64,000 bases of DNA from Kordiimonas sp. SCSIO 12610 (GTDB lineage Bacteria > Pseudomonadota > Alphaproteobacteria > Sphingomonadales > Kordiimonadaceae). Positions 22,223-28,845 of the stretch are shown in pieces (positions within the stretch are counted from its first letter, which is position 1; every line of letters starts with the position of its first letter). The notes beneath the pieces are model-generated. The model saw only the letters and a program-made list of their open reading frames with translations, searched no databases and was not told the DNA's origin. The DNA is taken from contig NZ_CP073747.1 of assembly GCF_024398015.1 (NCBI RefSeq), forward strand, positions 186,001 to 250,000. The letters run 5' to 3'. The translations under genes were made by a program, and so were the position numbers.

Positions 22223-23098
22223 CTACAGTTCCGTTTTAAGGAGTTCCTGAAGTCCTGTTCTGTATGATGGGTATTTTAGTGTAATTCCGAGTGTCGATTT
22301 GATTTTATCGTTCTTCACTCTTTTGCTCTCAAGGTAAAAACTACGCGCCATGGGACTTAGGTCTGCAGTTTCCCAATCCTGTGCTTCTGGAACCGGCATG
22401 TTTGTTAAGTCTGCCGCCATGGTAATAACATCCTGTGGCGGGCACGCCTCATCGTCAGCGAGGTTAAAAATATTGGTTGGGTAATTCCCTGTTGCGGCCT
22501 CTACGACCGTTTGACAAATATCTTCGACATGTATGCGACTGAAAACCTGACCTTCTTTAATGATGCGTTTCGCCTTTCCAGATAGAAGCGAGCGTATAGC
22601 ATTTCGCCGCGGCCCATATATGCCAGCAAGCCTAAATATATGAAGCGTAGCACTGGCCTGTTCACTAAAGTCGTGCCAGCTATTTTCTGCAAGTAAGCGG
22701 TTTTTTCCTCGTTCCAAAGAAGGACTGCAAGCGGTTGTTTCATCAACCCAGTTTCCACTGTGATCCCCGTAAACATTGGTGCTTGATAAATAGCCGATCC
22801 AGCTTATCTCAGGCATATGGGCACGCCATTTTTCCAAAATTGGCAAAATCGGATCTGGTCCATTTTTGGGAGCAATAGATGTGAGAATATGCGTTACATC
22901 CTGAATGTTTTGGCTCTGAGGGGTAACAGCTTCATCCAGTTCAATTGGGTTAAACCCTTCTTGTTGCAGGCTTGTTCTAGCCTCTTCCCTACGCCAGCTT
23001 GCGCTAACGTTCCAGCCAAGTGATAGAAAATGTTGCATAATTGGCATGGCACTATAACCGGGCCCAAAAACAAGAAGATGTGGTTTTTTAATTGTCAT
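22223..23098 (-). CDS. SDR-family NAD(P)-dependent epimerase/dehydratase-like protein (YeeZ-like)
   Basis: A 291-residue extended-SDR protein with an N-terminal Rossmann motif in variant form (LVFGPGYSAMPIMQ instead of GxxGxxG) and the segment GYLSSTNVYGDHSGNWVDE in the active-site region, where the SDR Tyr is present but the usual YxxxK lysine is not. IFRLAGIYGPRRNA and RIHVEDICQTV are typical of the YeeZ-like group. Substrate unknown. ATG at 23098 is preferred over a GTG at 23137, because homology starts there. Divergent from the TPR gene at 23161. Confidence 0.86.
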   Translation of the reverse strand: MTIKKPHLLVFGPGYSAMPIMQHFLSLGWNVSASWRREEARTSLQQEGFNPIELDEAVTPQSQNIQDVTHILTSIAPKNGPDPILPILEKWRAHMPEISWIGYLSSTNVYGDHSGNWVDETTACSPSLERGKNRLLAENSWHDFSEQASATLHIFRLAGIYGPRRNAIRSLLSGKAKRIIKEGQVFSRIHVEDICQTVVEAATGNYPTNIFNLADDEACPPQDVITMAADLTNMPVPEAQDWETADLSPMARSFYLESKRVKNDKIKSTLGITLKYPSYRTGLQELLKTEL

Positions 23099-23160
23099 TA
23101 ATTTTAGTTCTCTCAAATTATGCCTTGAAATTGCCACGACGATTATAGAGGGTAGCCGCC

Positions 23161-23994
23161 ATGATGAAACATATAGTAATTCTTTTTTGTAAAATTAGCA
23201 TTGGCTTTCTGATTATATCAGTTCCCTTATCTGCGATGCAGGATGAGTTCCAATCAGACGAGCAACGGTATGCTAAATGTCTGGATATGACAGAGAAAGC
23301 CCCAGATAATGCGGTCAATGAGGCCTTGATCTGGAAAGGTCAGGGAGGCGGTGTCCCTGCCCGTCACTGTGAGGCGTTAGGCTTATTTTATCTCGGAGAA
23401 CACGAAGAAGCCGCGGTGCGCCTTGAAAGACTGGTCGATGATATGCGTGTGGGGCGTGATATGCCTGTTCGCCTCGGCAAAAGAATTGTAGCGAATGCGT
23501 TTTTACTCGCTGAGATTTATAATCAAGCAGCAAATGCCTGGTTAGTTGCTGGCGAAATTGTCCGCGCTGAAGAGGCAATTGATAATGCGCTCTCTCTAAC
23601 AACTGAAAACTCGCCGCAGGAGCGTGAGTTTCTAATCGATCGGGCACGTATTGCTGCGGCCGACGATAATTTTGAACAGGCCTATACTGACTTGAAAGCC
23701 GTTTCTGCCGCTGACCCTGGGCGGATCGATATAATGTTGTTGCTTGCGTCCGCTGCTCGTGGAACAGACAGGTTAGATGAAGCGTCGCAGGCCCTTAGTA
23801 TTTATCAAAAGGTTTACCCTGACGACCCGTCAGCATATTTGGAATACGGTAATTTAAAACATGCCCAAAATGACTTTGATGCGGCAAGGCAAGCTTGGTT
23901 AAAGGTGCTTTTACTGCAAGGTGATGGTGCGAATGCAGATGCTGCGAGATCAAACCTTGAGGCGCTTGATTTAAATGTCGATAAAAACCCATAG
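23161..23994 (+). CDS. Exported TPR-repeat protein
   Basis: A 277-residue protein with a signal peptide (about residues 1-25, ending PLSAMQ) and TPR-like helices from about residue 60 to 265: AANAWLVAGEIVRAEEAIDNAL, FEQAYTDLKAVSAADPGRID, AYLEYGNLKHAQNDFDAARQAW. A short Cys-containing N-terminal region (KCLDM and ARHCEALGL) may hold a disulfide. Role unknown; probably a periplasmic scaffold. GAGGG precedes ATG. Its stop (23992-23994) is one base from the stop of the convergent Mur-ligase-like gene. Confidence 0.82.
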   Translation: MMKHIVILFCKISIGFLIISVPLSAMQDEFQSDEQRYAKCLDMTEKAPDNAVNEALIWKGQGGGVPARHCEALGLFYLGEHEEAAVRLERLVDDMRVGRDMPVRLGKRIVANAFLLAEIYNQAANAWLVAGEIVRAEEAIDNALSLTTENSPQEREFLIDRARIAAADDNFEQAYTDLKAVSAADPGRIDIMLLLASAARGTDRLDEASQALSIYQKVYPDDPSAYLEYGNLKHAQNDFDAARQAWLKVLLLQGDGANADAARSNLEALDLNVDKNP

Positions 23995-23995
23995 A

Positions 23996-25717
23996 TTAAA
24001 GCGTTACATCGGCTTCATATATATCAGGCAGGTTATTCTCGAATAAAACAGCATCCTCTGGTTTCCAGTTGTTTCGTGCCCAAGTTTCGGCTGCTTCTTG
24101 GGTGTCGAAGGTCATAACCGTAACGCTGCCATCATTGGCCGCTTCCAACCCTTTTAGAAACGATGGTATTCTGTTCGGTGTGACAGCAAGAATAATATCG
24201 CAGTATTTTGCTGCAATTTTGCCAAGGCGTTCATGCTCAGCATCGTGTTTTTCGCCTAATTCAACCATCCCGGGGGTAATCAGTATTCTTCGACCATTTT
24301 CGCCTTTAAGAACGTCAAGACATTCCAGGGCCGCTGCAAACCCAATAGGATTGGAATTGTAGGCATCGTCGATGATTGTAGGGTTGTTCACGGATTTTGT
24401 AACTTCAAGCCGATGTCTGATCTGGGGTGTTGATAGCAACGCCCCCTTTATTGTTGACCAAGGCATTCCGATCGCATGGGCGCATGCGGCCGCCAGCGCA
24501 ATATTTTCACCCTGATGTTCCCCAAAAAGAGGGGCCTTCAATATATGTTGTTCGTCGTTAACTTCGATCTCAACACTAAGGCCACCTGCATCCATAGTTA
24601 TTTCTTTTATGGCTAGGTCACTATTGGTATTTCCAACCTTAAGATAAGGCCCCTTTACATGCTTAAGTCTATCTTCAAGCAAGTGTTCAGGGATGCCGTT
24701 TTGGTTGATAATGGCTTTCCCACCATTATTGAAACAGGCTTCTGCAATTTCAAATTTTGCCTTGGCGACAGTTTCAAGGGATTTAAAGCGCTCATAGTGC
24801 GCGGCGCCAACCGCTGAAATCATAGCAATATTAGGCGGTGTTAGCTGGCATAATTTAGCGATAGACCCGGGGCCATAGGCCCCCATTTCTACGATAAAAT
24901 ATTGATGCTCTGGGGTTAGCGATTCCCGAATAACACGCGTTATCCCCATGTCCGTATTTACGCTTCCGGGGGTCGCAAGTGTTGGTGCCGCGTTCGACAG
25001 AATGTGGCTGAGTATATGTTTGGTTGATGTTTTTCCAAATGAACCGGTAATCGCAATGATCGTTGGTTTGAGCGCTGCGAATTTATCGATAGCCTCTTGT
25101 CTAAACTTGGCTTTCACTCTTTCCTCTGCGGGTTCGAGTAGTTTGTTTGCGCTTACCAATATAAAAGGCAATCCTTGGATAAGTAGCACTAAAAGGCCAG
25201 CAAATGCAGCTATTCGCCAATCGTATGCAATTAAACCAATATCAAATTCATCGATACTCATATTGATTGCAAAATGACTTCCCTCTGGCGCAAAGCTAGT
25301 AATAATTACGATAAGAACGGTTAGGGCTAATGACAGCAGCATATAGACACTTAGGATACGCTTTACACGCGTTGTCAGAACGAGCTTCTTCTTGGATATT
25401 TTCCGGCCTTGGCGCGATATAAAAATACCGTGCAATAACCCCACACAAATAAAAGGCCACACAACAAAGGATAGCTTATTCAGGAGTGTCGTTTGCGATA
25501 GGCTTCCTGCAAAGAGTGCCAGTATAAGCCAAAAGCTGGCACGGATATCATAGGCCTTTTTATTGTGTAACCATTTAATAAAGCGTGGCCCATCATATTC
25601 TTCCTGCTGGAAAAACTTTGTGAGCGTTAAGCCCCGCTCTAGAAGAAACCAAAAAATAATTGGCCCGCCGATAGCAAAAACGATCAGACTAAAAGGCAGG
25701 TTATCAAAGGATATCAT
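23996..25717 (-). CDS. Membrane-anchored MurF-like Mur ligase
   Basis: A 573-residue protein whose C-terminal two thirds is a Mur ligase, closest in motifs to MurF (the enzyme that adds D-Ala-D-Ala to the UDP-MurNAc-tripeptide). P-loop TGSFGKTST is at residues 224-232; VEMGAYGPGSIAKL, the probable carbamylated-Lys region TVAKAKFEIAEA, DDAYNSNPIGFAAALE and ITPGMVELGE follow. The usual UDP-substrate-binding N-terminal domain is absent and is replaced by five predicted membrane helices (about 7-25, 60-76, 82-100, 120-141, 168-190). This suggests a membrane-bound, perhaps lipid-linked or non-nucleotide acceptor (inference). ATG 25717 overlaps the hydrolase stop as ATGA. Confidence 0.88.
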   Translation of the reverse strand: MISFDNLPFSLIVFAIGGPIIFWFLLERGLTLTKFFQQEEYDGPRFIKWLHNKKAYDIRASFWLILALFAGSLSQTTLLNKLSFVVWPFICVGLLHGIFISRQGRKISKKKLVLTTRVKRILSVYMLLSLALTVLIVIITSFAPEGSHFAINMSIDEFDIGLIAYDWRIAAFAGLLVLLIQGLPFILVSANKLLEPAEERVKAKFRQEAIDKFAALKPTIIAITGSFGKTSTKHILSHILSNAAPTLATPGSVNTDMGITRVIRESLTPEHQYFIVEMGAYGPGSIAKLCQLTPPNIAMISAVGAAHYERFKSLETVAKAKFEIAEACFNNGGKAIINQNGIPEHLLEDRLKHVKGPYLKVGNTNSDLAIKEITMDAGGLSVEIEVNDEQHILKAPLFGEHQGENIALAAACAHAIGMPWSTIKGALLSTPQIRHRLEVTKSVNNPTIIDDAYNSNPIGFAAALECLDVLKGENGRRILITPGMVELGEKHDAEHERLGKIAAKYCDIILAVTPNRIPSFLKGLEAANDGSVTVMTFDTQEAAETWARNNWKPEDAVLFENNLPDIYEADVTL

Positions 25718-26496
25718 AGGTTCAAATCCTTGAAAAATGTCCGAATAAGAGCTTCGCATTGATAAGCACCACGATCAAGAATATCCCAATGATCAAATCC
25801 TTCAAGTTCTTCATACCGTGCGATCGCAATGGCTTCTTCGTACTTTTTACCAATCTCAGGCGGAGCTTCTGTGTCATCACTCCCATATATCAACAAAGCT
25901 GGTACTTTAATCTGCTTCGCAATATTGGTCAGGTTTTCAGTAACAGCCTTCACGAATGTTGTGCGTAAGGTACCAGCATTTCTATAATCGCTACTCCCGA
26001 ACCGTTTGGAATAGCGCTCCTGAAGGTTACTCTTGAATAGAGAATCAATAAGTCGTGCCGCGCGACCCAATTGTTTTAAGAAGGCAGCTTTAAGCTTAAA
26101 CGCTAAACTGCGCGTGCGCGGAATACCAGCACCCCCAATTAAGACAATTGCTTTGATAAGTTCCGGGTGACGCGAAGCCATCTGGATAGCAACTCTTCCA
26201 CCATAGCTGTGACCAATAATTATATGGGGCTGATCAGGGCTTAATTGCTTTGCAAGATTATCAGCATAATCAGCTGTTCCGCCATCAACTATCAGGGGGG
26301 TTTTTCCAAATCCAGGCTGATCATAAATTTTATTGATGTGATCCGCTTTGAATAGATTTGCTAACCGCGACAGGGCGGTGTGGTTCTGGCCCCAGCCATG
26401 CAACCATATTAAAGATTGGCCGTTATCGCCAAGGGTTTGATGATACCAATCACTCGTATTGTCTTCGGCTTTAAGGATAGTTGGGTCACTGGTCAT
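25714..26496 (-). CDS. Cytosolic alpha/beta hydrolase of the Ddl/MurF-like operon
   Basis: A 260-residue alpha/beta-hydrolase without signal peptide. The HGWGQN oxyanion motif is at about residues 33-38, the nucleophile Ser S97 in IIGHSYGGR, the acid D207 or D208 in LIYGSDDTEAP and His H236 in EGFDHWDIL; the triad looks intact. Substrate unknown; it sits between a D-Ala-D-Ala-ligase-like and a MurF-like gene, 8 bases after the first and overlapping the second by 4, so an ester or amide product of that pathway is a reasonable guess. Ribosome-binding site weak, suggesting coupling. Confidence 0.88.
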   Translation of the reverse strand: MTSDPTILKAEDNTSDWYHQTLGDNGQSLIWLHGWGQNHTALSRLANLFKADHINKIYDQPGFGKTPLIVDGGTADYADNLAKQLSPDQPHIIIGHSYGGRVAIQMASRHPELIKAIVLIGGAGIPRTRSLAFKLKAAFLKQLGRAARLIDSLFKSNLQERYSKRFGSSDYRNAGTLRTTFVKAVTENLTNIAKQIKVPALLIYGSDDTEAPPEIGKKYEEAIAIARYEELEGFDHWDILDRGAYQCEALIRTFFKDLNL

Positions 26497-26504
26497 TAAG
26501 GATA

Positions 26505-27734
26505 CTAGCTTTCAACAAAAATGGTTGCACCGCCAATATGGGTTCCTGTATCGCCAAGGCGTTTGGCAGATAATGCAAACCCTTCCTCTATGATGTCGGA
26601 TGTAAGAGCAAGAAAGCTTGTGGCCTCTTCAGCGGCTTCCCAAAGAAAATAGGCGAATGACCCTGGTATGGTATTAACTTCATTAAGCCATATCTCACCG
26701 GTTTTCTCATTCGAGAGAAAGTCAATTCTTACGCTGCCAGCCAGGTTGAGAACATCAAAGATTTTACTACTGCTATTTCTAATAATATCTATCTGATCGG
26801 TATTCAGGTTCGATGGGTTTAATTCGCGGTTTAAGGATGCCATCCCTTCACTATTGCCGCCAGATTTTGCTTTTGGTGCGCCGGGCTCGTTGCCGCCCAG
26901 GTATTTATTTTTGAAGTCTAATAATTCTGCATTTCTTAAAGGGCGCTCAATTGCGGATGTAATAATCGTGCCATCCAACTTACGGCGCACTGAAATATTA
27001 TATTCAACAAGATTTTCCACGAATGGCTCAATGATCACTTCGCTATCAAGTTTAAACGCAGTCATCAAAGCACCGATTAAACTGTCAATATCGTCAGCCT
27101 TACCAACACCCACGCTGGAGCCAAGGTTACAGGGTTTAACAATATAAGGATACCTGATAGCTCCAAATACAGAAGTAAGCTCGTTTTCAATCGCTTCTGG
27201 ATCAAGGAAAGTACCAGTTTTAGGCCTGGCCATAATCATTTCGTCCAAAACGTTGATATTATTTTGGCGCGCTTGCTTCTTTGTAAATTCTTTATTCATT
27301 GTTGCTGCTGCACCAAGTGTTCTACAGCCAGCATATGGGATATTTGCGAATTCAAGCAGCCCTTGAAGCGTTCCATCCTCACCGTTTGATCCATGAATAG
27401 CTGGAACCATTAGGTCAAACGGAATGGCTTCCCGTTTTTCGCCCATCAACCCCTTTTTAAATGTTGTGAGGGACGGTCGTCCATTTGCATTGGTAGCCAG
27501 TTCTAACTTCACTTCAGACAGGGTTTTTTGCTTGCTATCATTGACAGGATAATAGCTTCGTTTCTTTAAAGCGTCACCTGTCCACCACTGCCCGAGAGGG
27601 TCAACATAAACCGGAAGGCCAGTGTATTTCCCAGGGTCTAAGGCTTCTAGAAATTGAAGCCCGGTTAAAACGCTCACATCATGCTCTACGCTTCTACCGC
27701 CAAATATTACTGCGATGACCTTCTTTTCGGCCAT
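26505..27734 (-). CDS. D-alanine-D-alanine ligase-like ATP-grasp enzyme
   Basis: A 409-residue ATP-grasp ligase of the Ddl family, which joins two D-amino acids (or a D-hydroxy acid) with ATP. IFGGRSVEHDVS (E17), CNLGSSVGVG (S206/S207) and the omega-loop FKNKY (K277, Y278) preserve the Glu-Ser-Tyr triad of D-Ala-D-Ala ligases; RIDFL and NEVNTIPG supply metal and substrate ligands. It is longer than DdlB (306) and DdlA (364), with an extra 15-20 residues after the omega loop rich in Gly, Pro and Ser. It opens the operon with a hydrolase and a membrane MurF-like ligase, not the cell-division cluster, so it may be a paralogue. AAAGGGGG precedes ATG. Confidence 0.9.
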   Translation of the reverse strand: MAEKKVIAVIFGGRSVEHDVSVLTGLQFLEALDPGKYTGLPVYVDPLGQWWTGDALKKRSYYPVNDSKQKTLSEVKLELATNANGRPSLTTFKKGLMGEKREAIPFDLMVPAIHGSNGEDGTLQGLLEFANIPYAGCRTLGAAATMNKEFTKKQARQNNINVLDEMIMARPKTGTFLDPEAIENELTSVFGAIRYPYIVKPCNLGSSVGVGKADDIDSLIGALMTAFKLDSEVIIEPFVENLVEYNISVRRKLDGTIITSAIERPLRNAELLDFKNKYLGGNEPGAPKAKSGGNSEGMASLNRELNPSNLNTDQIDIIRNSSSKIFDVLNLAGSVRIDFLSNEKTGEIWLNEVNTIPGSFAYFLWEAAEEATSFLALTSDIIEEGFALSAKRLGDTGTHIGGATIFVES

Positions 27735-27799: not shown

Positions 27800-27957
27800 C
27801 AAGTCTACATCAAAATGAAAAGAATAAAAGTTGCAAGCATGACCATATCATGGCGATATCGTGGCCTATCGCTTCACTGCCTTGTCATTTGATCATAAGC
27901 CGTGACAGTTTTATTGTCCGGGTAATTTCATTGGATAATGTATCAAGGGAGGGATCT

Positions 27958-28845
27958 ATGAATTTGAAAAAGGTATTAAGCTCGCTCGCAGCTGCCACGA
28001 TATTGACCGGAACTGCTTTTTCACAGGATGATCGGTTTGCAGGTGTTGAGGTCACCGCGGAACATGTACGCGGCAACATTCATGTCTTGTTTGGCGCAGG
28101 TGGTAATATCGGCGTTTCGCTCGGTGAAGACGGTGTCTATATCGTTGACGATCAGTTTGCGCCACTGTCTGACAAAATACGCGCAGCTATAAAAGGCTTA
28201 AGCGACAAGCCAATTAAATATGTGATTAACACTCATTTTCATGGTGACCACACGGGCGGAAACGAAAACTTTGGTAAAACCGGCTCAGTGATCGTCGCGC
28301 ATGACAATGTTCGGGTCAGAATGGCGCCTCGCGTATTTGAAGCCACCGAAAATAAACTAGGCGAAAAGTCGCTACCTGTTGTCACGTTCAACGATGAAAT
28401 GTCATTGCATTTAAACGGTGAGGAAACCCGTATTGTTCATGTGTCCCGCGCCCATACAGACGGCGACAGTTTGGTATATTTTAAGGGTAATAATGTTCTT
28501 CATATGGGCGATACATTTTTTGCCAATAGATTCCCATTTATTGACACAAGAAGCGGTGGGACGATTGGCGGTTTAATAGAAACAATCGCTACAGCAATTG
28601 ATATCTCTAATAGCGATACACTGATTATTCCTGGCCATGGGCCGGTTTCGAAAAAACCTCTCTTGATAGAATATTATCAGATGCTGATAGAAAGCCGTGA
28701 CCGTGTGGTTAAGCTTAAAAATGAGGGAAAATCTCTGGAAGAGATCGTTGCGATGAAACCGCTGGCGGATATGGATGCTCGTTGGCAAACCGATAATGCA
28801 GAGTGGCCAGACCGTTATGTTGGTTTCATCTATTCCAGCCTCTAA
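27958..28845 (+). CDS. Periplasmic metallo-beta-lactamase-fold hydrolase
   Basis: A 295-residue exported MBL-fold hydrolase. Signal peptide about residues 1-22 (TAFSQ). The zinc motif HxHxDH is NTHFHGDHTGG (H93, H95, D97, H98); further ligands lie in VSRAHTDGDS, HMGDTFFANRFPF (Asp) and IIPGHGPVS. This resembles the broad group of cyclase- or subclass-B-like hydrolases often annotated as MBL fold metallo-hydrolase; beta-lactamase activity is not implied. ATG 27958 is selected because a GGGAGGG site precedes it and a signal peptide follows directly; a reading from 27850 has neither. Confidence 0.92.
   Translation: MNLKKVLSSLAAATILTGTAFSQDDRFAGVEVTAEHVRGNIHVLFGAGGNIGVSLGEDGVYIVDDQFAPLSDKIRAAIKGLSDKPIKYVINTHFHGDHTGGNENFGKTGSVIVAHDNVRVRMAPRVFEATENKLGEKSLPVVTFNDEMSLHLNGEETRIVHVSRAHTDGDSLVYFKGNNVLHMGDTFFANRFPFIDTRSGGTIGGLIETIATAIDISNSDTLIIPGHGPVSKKPLLIEYYQMLIESRDRVVKLKNEGKSLEEIVAMKPLADMDARWQTDNAEWPDRYVGFIYSSL

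Follow-up and report, generated by a model that had tools for sequence, protein, structure and literature searches.

A Ddl, an alpha/beta hydrolase, and a membrane-anchored MurF-like ligase form a conserved gene trio that probably replaces ddlB and murF

RESULTS

The 64,000-nucleotide stretch of the Kordiimonas sp. SCSIO 12610 genome analyzed here (the window; contig NZ_CP073747.1, positions 186,001 to 250,000) contains three neighboring minus-strand open reading frames (ORFs), which are predicted to encode a D-alanine–D-alanine ligase (Ddl), an alpha/beta hydrolase, and a MurF-like ligase with membrane helices (termed membrane MurF herein), and which together probably form a module that replaces ddlB and murF in peptidoglycan synthesis (Table 1). 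An initial annotation, made from the sequence alone, had described the three genes as tightly packed, and rereading of the coordinates gave the same layout: the Ddl and hydrolase ORFs are separated by 8 bases, and the hydrolase and membrane MurF ORFs overlap in an ATGA if the latter starts at position 25717. The frame is open from position 25759, but the start at 25717 (573 amino acids) is the likelier one.

The Ddl matches Pfam Dala_Dala_lig_N and Dala_Dala_lig_C, both above cut-off, and alignment onto Escherichia coli DdlB, whose numbering is used here, places the Glu15-Ser150-Tyr216 triad together with Arg255, Asp257, Glu270, and Asn272. The hydrolase matches Pfam Abhydrolase_1; its nearest NCBIfam model, "EstV family lipase," stays below cut-off. 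Both active sites had been described as intact, and neither the Ddl triad nor the Ser97-Asp208-His236 triad of the hydrolase varied across 46 trios drawn from two phyla (46/46).

The third protein is matched by Pfam Mur_ligase_M and Mur_ligase_C, and the Mur N-terminal domain is not listed. Its match to the NCBIfam murF model TIGR01143 begins only at model position 63 and, at 228 bits, falls short of the 288.6-bit cut-off, as do those of all membrane forms in the carriers examined. In an AlphaFold2 model (42-row alignment; predicted local distance difference test [pLDDT] score of 92), membrane helices are predicted at residues 9 to 38, 58 to 73, 80 to 107, 116 to 141, and 167 to 216, the last of which continues into the Mur core, and the membrane domain modeled alone gave an equally confident fold. 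Pfam and AlphaFold2 thus agree with the earlier description of a Mur ligase in which five membrane helices, and not a divergent fold binding uridine diphosphate (UDP), take the place of the UDP-binding domain. The loop charges agree with the positive-inside rule, with the N terminus predicted outside from hydropathy and charge, and two conserved motifs, QQEEYD..RF..W and KKPLVxTxRxxR, lie on the predicted cytoplasmic face. The nearest structural neighbors of the core are MurF structures (VIA Z 36); the membrane domain alone had no match in the PDB at an E value of <0.001, its best score (VIA Z 5.4, to POT transporters) being within noise. The membrane form keeps the catalytic features of MurF, namely, the P-loop, the position of the carbamylated lysine, YNxN, and the equivalents of Lys202, His188, and Asn334. 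The UDP-binding residues of E. coli MurF (D30, R32, G37, and G45) have no counterpart in any membrane form.

Membrane MurF proteins form one old clade separate from canonical MurF (support 100*, branch 2.3), and a recent duplication of the Kordiimonas murF was therefore rejected. A second, decaying membrane MurF copy lies next to the trio of genome G059 (L084:730-2415; 33.8% identity, altered YNxN), and several Streptomyces plasmids (records H4, H7, H17, and H21) carry an annotated murF that matches the ligase core of membrane MurF. Searches of viral contigs, plasmids, and phages for more membrane MurF homologues or for a Campylobacterota copy returned nothing useful.

The co-occurrence search proposed in the initial annotation found the trio in scattered Alphaproteobacteria and in Bacillota, and its retention across families and phyla argues that the gene set is not due to chance. 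Hydrolase and membrane MurF are adjacent in nearly all carriers, which bears out the inclusion of the hydrolase in the set; the Ddl gene may be in line, divergent, or elsewhere, yet is kept. Across the 46 loci with all three genes, the pairwise gene distances correlate at 0.91 to 0.96, and no recurring fourth gene was found beside the trio beyond local synteny. In the Bacillota sample (199 genomes, with the search centered on a Clostridia genome), 11 genomes encode a full-length membrane MurF (342 to 434 bits versus ≤223 for all others), and in 11/11 a trio-type Ddl stands beside it. All three genes are side by side in 10 of these 11, in a gene order unlike that of Alphaproteobacteria, and in the eleventh locus (L213) the contig stops just short of where the hydrolase would lie.

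The Kordiimonas genome consists of one 3.5-Mb contig. In its dcw cluster, where canonical murF is present and intact, the only gene absent is ddlB, from its place between murB and ftsQ. The single PF01820 match of the genome is the Ddl of the window, further PF07478 matches being weak and mostly within longer frames; as the only Ddl, it is expected to be a housekeeping enzyme rather than an accessory one. All 29 Kordiimonadaceae sampled have a trio-type Ddl and no other (in one metagenome-assembled genome, a further fragment lies at the edge of a contig). Among 99 genomes of the order, 42 encode a membrane MurF, and in 40 of them the Ddl is of the long type and DdlB is absent; of the other two, one shows a partial Ddl at the edge of a contig, and one, 71% complete, has no Ddl that could be found. 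Of the 57 genomes without membrane MurF, 52 have the short DdlB only and 5 have no detected Ddl, so that none of the 92 genomes with a detected Ddl (40 + 52) is mixed. The dcw clusters of eight carriers from four families lack exactly ddlB, whereas five noncarriers of the class have ddlB between murB and ftsQ. Class-wide (385 genomes), membrane MurF occurs in 23 scattered genomes, a count that leaves out a weak match in G312, and all except G168 (78% complete) have a trio-type Ddl; conversely, in G131 (84% complete) a trio-type Ddl was detected and a membrane MurF was not found. A hidden Markov model of the carrier-type Ddl scored trio Ddls at 286 to 507 bits, with every other Ddl tested in the class staying under 180.

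We searched 33 carriers outside the order of Kordiimonas for any MurF. An intact canonical murF was not found in 30 of them (22 with none and 8 with a broken or truncated one), several of the carriers without canonical murF being 99 to 100% complete genomes. The canonical protein lacks the P-loop, the catalytic lysine, or the C-terminal domain in G416, G1009, G149, G120, G251, and G348 and shows site losses in G317 and G264; it is largely intact in G214, G296, and G480, with two sites changed in G480. In 16 dcw clusters that were read directly, murE and mraY adjoin, with murF cut out. Since the pentapeptide must still be finished, membrane MurF is the only candidate for this step in most of these carriers, and judged by genome content it is very probably a genuine MurF.

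Four loci (L240, L241, L242, and L243, from G120, G251, G348, and G149) encode fusions of MurE with a canonical MurF remnant whose N-terminal side is preserved but whose P-loop, catalytic lysine, and C-terminal domain are gone; these remnants are possibly retained pseudoenzymes.

These data bear on the accessory pathway favored in the initial annotation, in which a D-dipeptide is attached to a membrane polymer or lipid other than peptidoglycan. It would account for the exchange of the UDP-binding domain for a membrane domain and for the intact canonical MurF of Kordiimonas; indeed, of the other murF and ddl genes that the annotation had asked for, the canonical dcw murF is present, and a second Ddl was not found. 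The part that stands is the conserved pair of Ddl and membrane MurF and, plausibly, a D-dipeptide that the pair makes and attaches at the membrane. A separate accessory pathway is hard to reconcile with a trio Ddl that is the sole one of the genome, with a canonical MurF absent or dead in most carriers that must still complete their pentapeptide, and with trio or MurF-hydrolase genes that adjoin dcw murB in G335, G416, and G480. We regard it as improbable and dropped it as the leading explanation; the loss of canonical murF points to peptidoglycan itself, and not another envelope polymer, as the target.

Table 1 lists the features of the locus. A gene for a metallo-beta-lactamase-fold protein (window positions 27850 to 28845, plus strand) is divergent from ddl and has a homologue in 17 sampled trio loci of the order. 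On the other side, a gene for a protein without a Pfam match (22223 to 23137, minus strand) and one for a TPR protein (23161 to 23994, plus strand) keep their position next to the trio in 14 loci, chiefly in Kordiimonadaceae.

TABLE 1 Features of the trio locus (window coordinates)
Feature	Position	Strand	Basis
Ddl, D-alanine–D-alanine ligase, 409 amino acids; only Ddl of the genome, H. pylori-type clade	26505..27734	-	Pfam/NCBIfam; sole PF01820 match; tree with HpDdl (2pvp) in clade
PGSFAYFLW, altered second-D-Ala site (E. coli DdlB Ser281 position, Phe/Tyr in trio Ddls)	26640..26666	-	Alignment onto E. coli DdlB
Alpha/beta hydrolase, 260 amino acids, Ser97-Asp208-His236	25714..26496	-	Pfam/NCBIfam; triad invariant in 46/46
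Membrane MurF-like ligase, 573 amino acids; ORF open from 25759	23996..25717	-	Pfam/NCBIfam; AlphaFold2 model mbc2958e2722a, pLDDT 92; core matching MurF in PDB
Predicted five-helix membrane domain replacing the UDP-binding domain	25070..25717	-	Models; hydropathy; positive-inside loops
Predicted cytoplasmic-face motif FFQQEEYDGPRFIKW (Bacillota form QxxxY...W)	25571..25615	-	Conserved alignment columns; Bacillota members
Predicted cytoplasmic-face motif SKKKLVLTTRVKR (family KKPLVxTxRxxR)	25358..25396	-	Conserved alignment columns; Bacillota members
P-loop GSFGKTS of the Mur ligase core	25025..25045	-	Invariant in alignment
Middle and C-terminal domains of the Mur ligase, with E-N at the position of E. 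coli MurF K432-G433	23999..25069	-	Pfam; comparison with E. coli MurF

DISCUSSION

The conservation of the trio, the Ddl swap, the loss or decay of canonical murF, the intact active sites, and the predicted membrane architecture, all read from sequence, are probably best explained by a module that stands in for ddlB and murF in peptidoglycan synthesis; its substrates, the acceptor, and the role of the hydrolase are what we infer. The Ddl would make D-Ala-D-Ala for the whole cell, and membrane MurF, embedded in the inner membrane, would attach this dipeptide to the stem tripeptide on the cytoplasmic side. The hydrolase would be an obligate partner, and our guess is that it edits wrong or stalled ligation products. 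In Kordiimonas, the module would supply the only Ddl of the cell, with canonical MurF kept alongside.

Several observations weigh against such a replacement. An intact canonical MurF is retained next to membrane MurF in Kordiimonas, where membrane MurF may therefore have a special or other role. G1009 has a further, ambiguous intact MurF frame of 839 amino acids on another contig (L250:3634-6153), which may be a MurF fusion contributed by contaminating DNA of another genome. Many of the genomes are metagenome assembled, and some absences may be gaps. No convincing conserved-column switches that would signal a changed acceptor were found in MraY, MurG, or MurE between the two groups of genomes compared. 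Finally, the ligase has E-N for K432-G433 of the C-terminal loop of E. coli MurF, and the second-substrate pocket of the Ddl is altered: Ser281, which in E. coli DdlB binds the carboxylate of the second D-Ala (PMC5717164), is replaced by Phe or Tyr in 46/46 trio Ddls.

These last two changes together mean that the dipeptide could differ from D-Ala-D-Ala (e.g., D-Ala-Gly or D-Ala-D-X). The Helicobacter pylori Ddl (HpDdl; PDB 2pvp), which falls inside the trio Ddl clade (support 99/97), might seem to agree, with a second-D-Ala Km of 627 mM (the top concentration assayed) versus about 0.07 to 5 mM in other Ddls (PMC6899670, table). However, HpDdl, although divergent from the trio Ddls (top identity, 35%), likewise lacks Ser281 and has L210, F212, S277, L278, and Y281 in common with them, and it was assayed as a D-Ala-D-Ala ligase, while the H. 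pylori wall contains 42% pentapeptide monomers (PMC3310797). We therefore downgraded the altered pocket as a sign of a novel dipeptide, and Lys215, Tyr216, Arg255, and Gly276 are all retained in the trio Ddls. HpDdl shares pocket and clade and comes from a bacterium with a pentapeptide-rich wall; by analogy, the trio Ddls likely form D-Ala-D-Ala, and a different dipeptide is unlikely. We hypothesize that the weak second site of HpDdl could reflect partners missing in vitro.

As to the acceptor, two features hint at a tripeptide that may be lipid linked (lipid I or II): the lost UDP-binding domain, and the basic and aromatic motifs conserved where the protein meets the membrane surface. UDP-N-acetylmuramic acid (MurNAc)-tripeptide is also possible. 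A variant of the replacement module, in which MurF acts on UDP-MurNAc-tripeptide and the membrane domain serves only to bring it to MraY, is a serious if doubtful contender: the MurF core is complete, and the conserved MraY and MurE columns are unswitched in genomes with membrane MurF only, but the residues that would hold UDP have no counterpart, and the membrane motifs on the cytoplasmic face are strongly conserved. With somewhat greater reserve, we propose that many bacteria invert the usual sequence of MurF before MraY: a tripeptide would be handled by MraY, and perhaps by MurG, and membrane MurF would complete the pentapeptide on lipid I or II, together with a Ddl that binds its second substrate very weakly and a dedicated hydrolase.

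MurF and Ddl are textbook cytoplasmic enzymes and essential antibacterial targets. The trio is found in at least two bacterial phyla, and in most carriers outside the order of Kordiimonas its membrane MurF is the sole candidate for an essential wall step that textbooks place in the cytoplasm. If true, the place at which the pentapeptide is completed and the carrier that bears it would change, and MurF inhibitors directed against the UDP pocket could not work in such bacteria.

Compared with canonical MurF (TIGR01143; structures from E. coli, Acinetobacter baumannii, and Thermotoga maritima), the membrane form shares the middle and C-terminal domains, the P-loop, the carbamylated-lysine position, and YNxN; unlike it, it has five helices for the UDP-binding N-terminal domain, E-N for the C-terminal K-G, and a clade of its own. 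MurT/GatD amidates lipid II, with MurT being a Mur-family ligase that acts at the lipid stage. It is among the structural fold matches of the membrane MurF model; unlike membrane MurF, it has no membrane domain, and its partner is a glutamine amidotransferase, of which no recurring gene occurs beside the trio. In archaea, pMurC and pMurE reuse the Mur ligase fold for pseudomurein, with no transmembrane segments listed (PMC11915815, Table 1), and they are not accompanied by a Ddl or hydrolase of the trio type. HpDdl, the relative within the trio Ddl clade, shares the pocket residues in an otherwise divergent sequence, and the trio gives reason to revisit its weak second D-Ala site. The closest parallel in gene content is Campylobacter jejuni, whose MurF (Cj0795c), hydrolase (Cj0796c), and Ddl (Cj0798c) lie in one locus (PMC5530802); in the openly licensed literature, these gene names were all we found on membrane MurF or the trio. 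By that paper's description, the same three functions are united there, with a Ddl and a MurF that, unlike those of the trio, are described as ordinary. Deletion of Cj0796c failed, so the hydrolase is perhaps essential (PMC5530802), and the trio offers it a candidate pathway.

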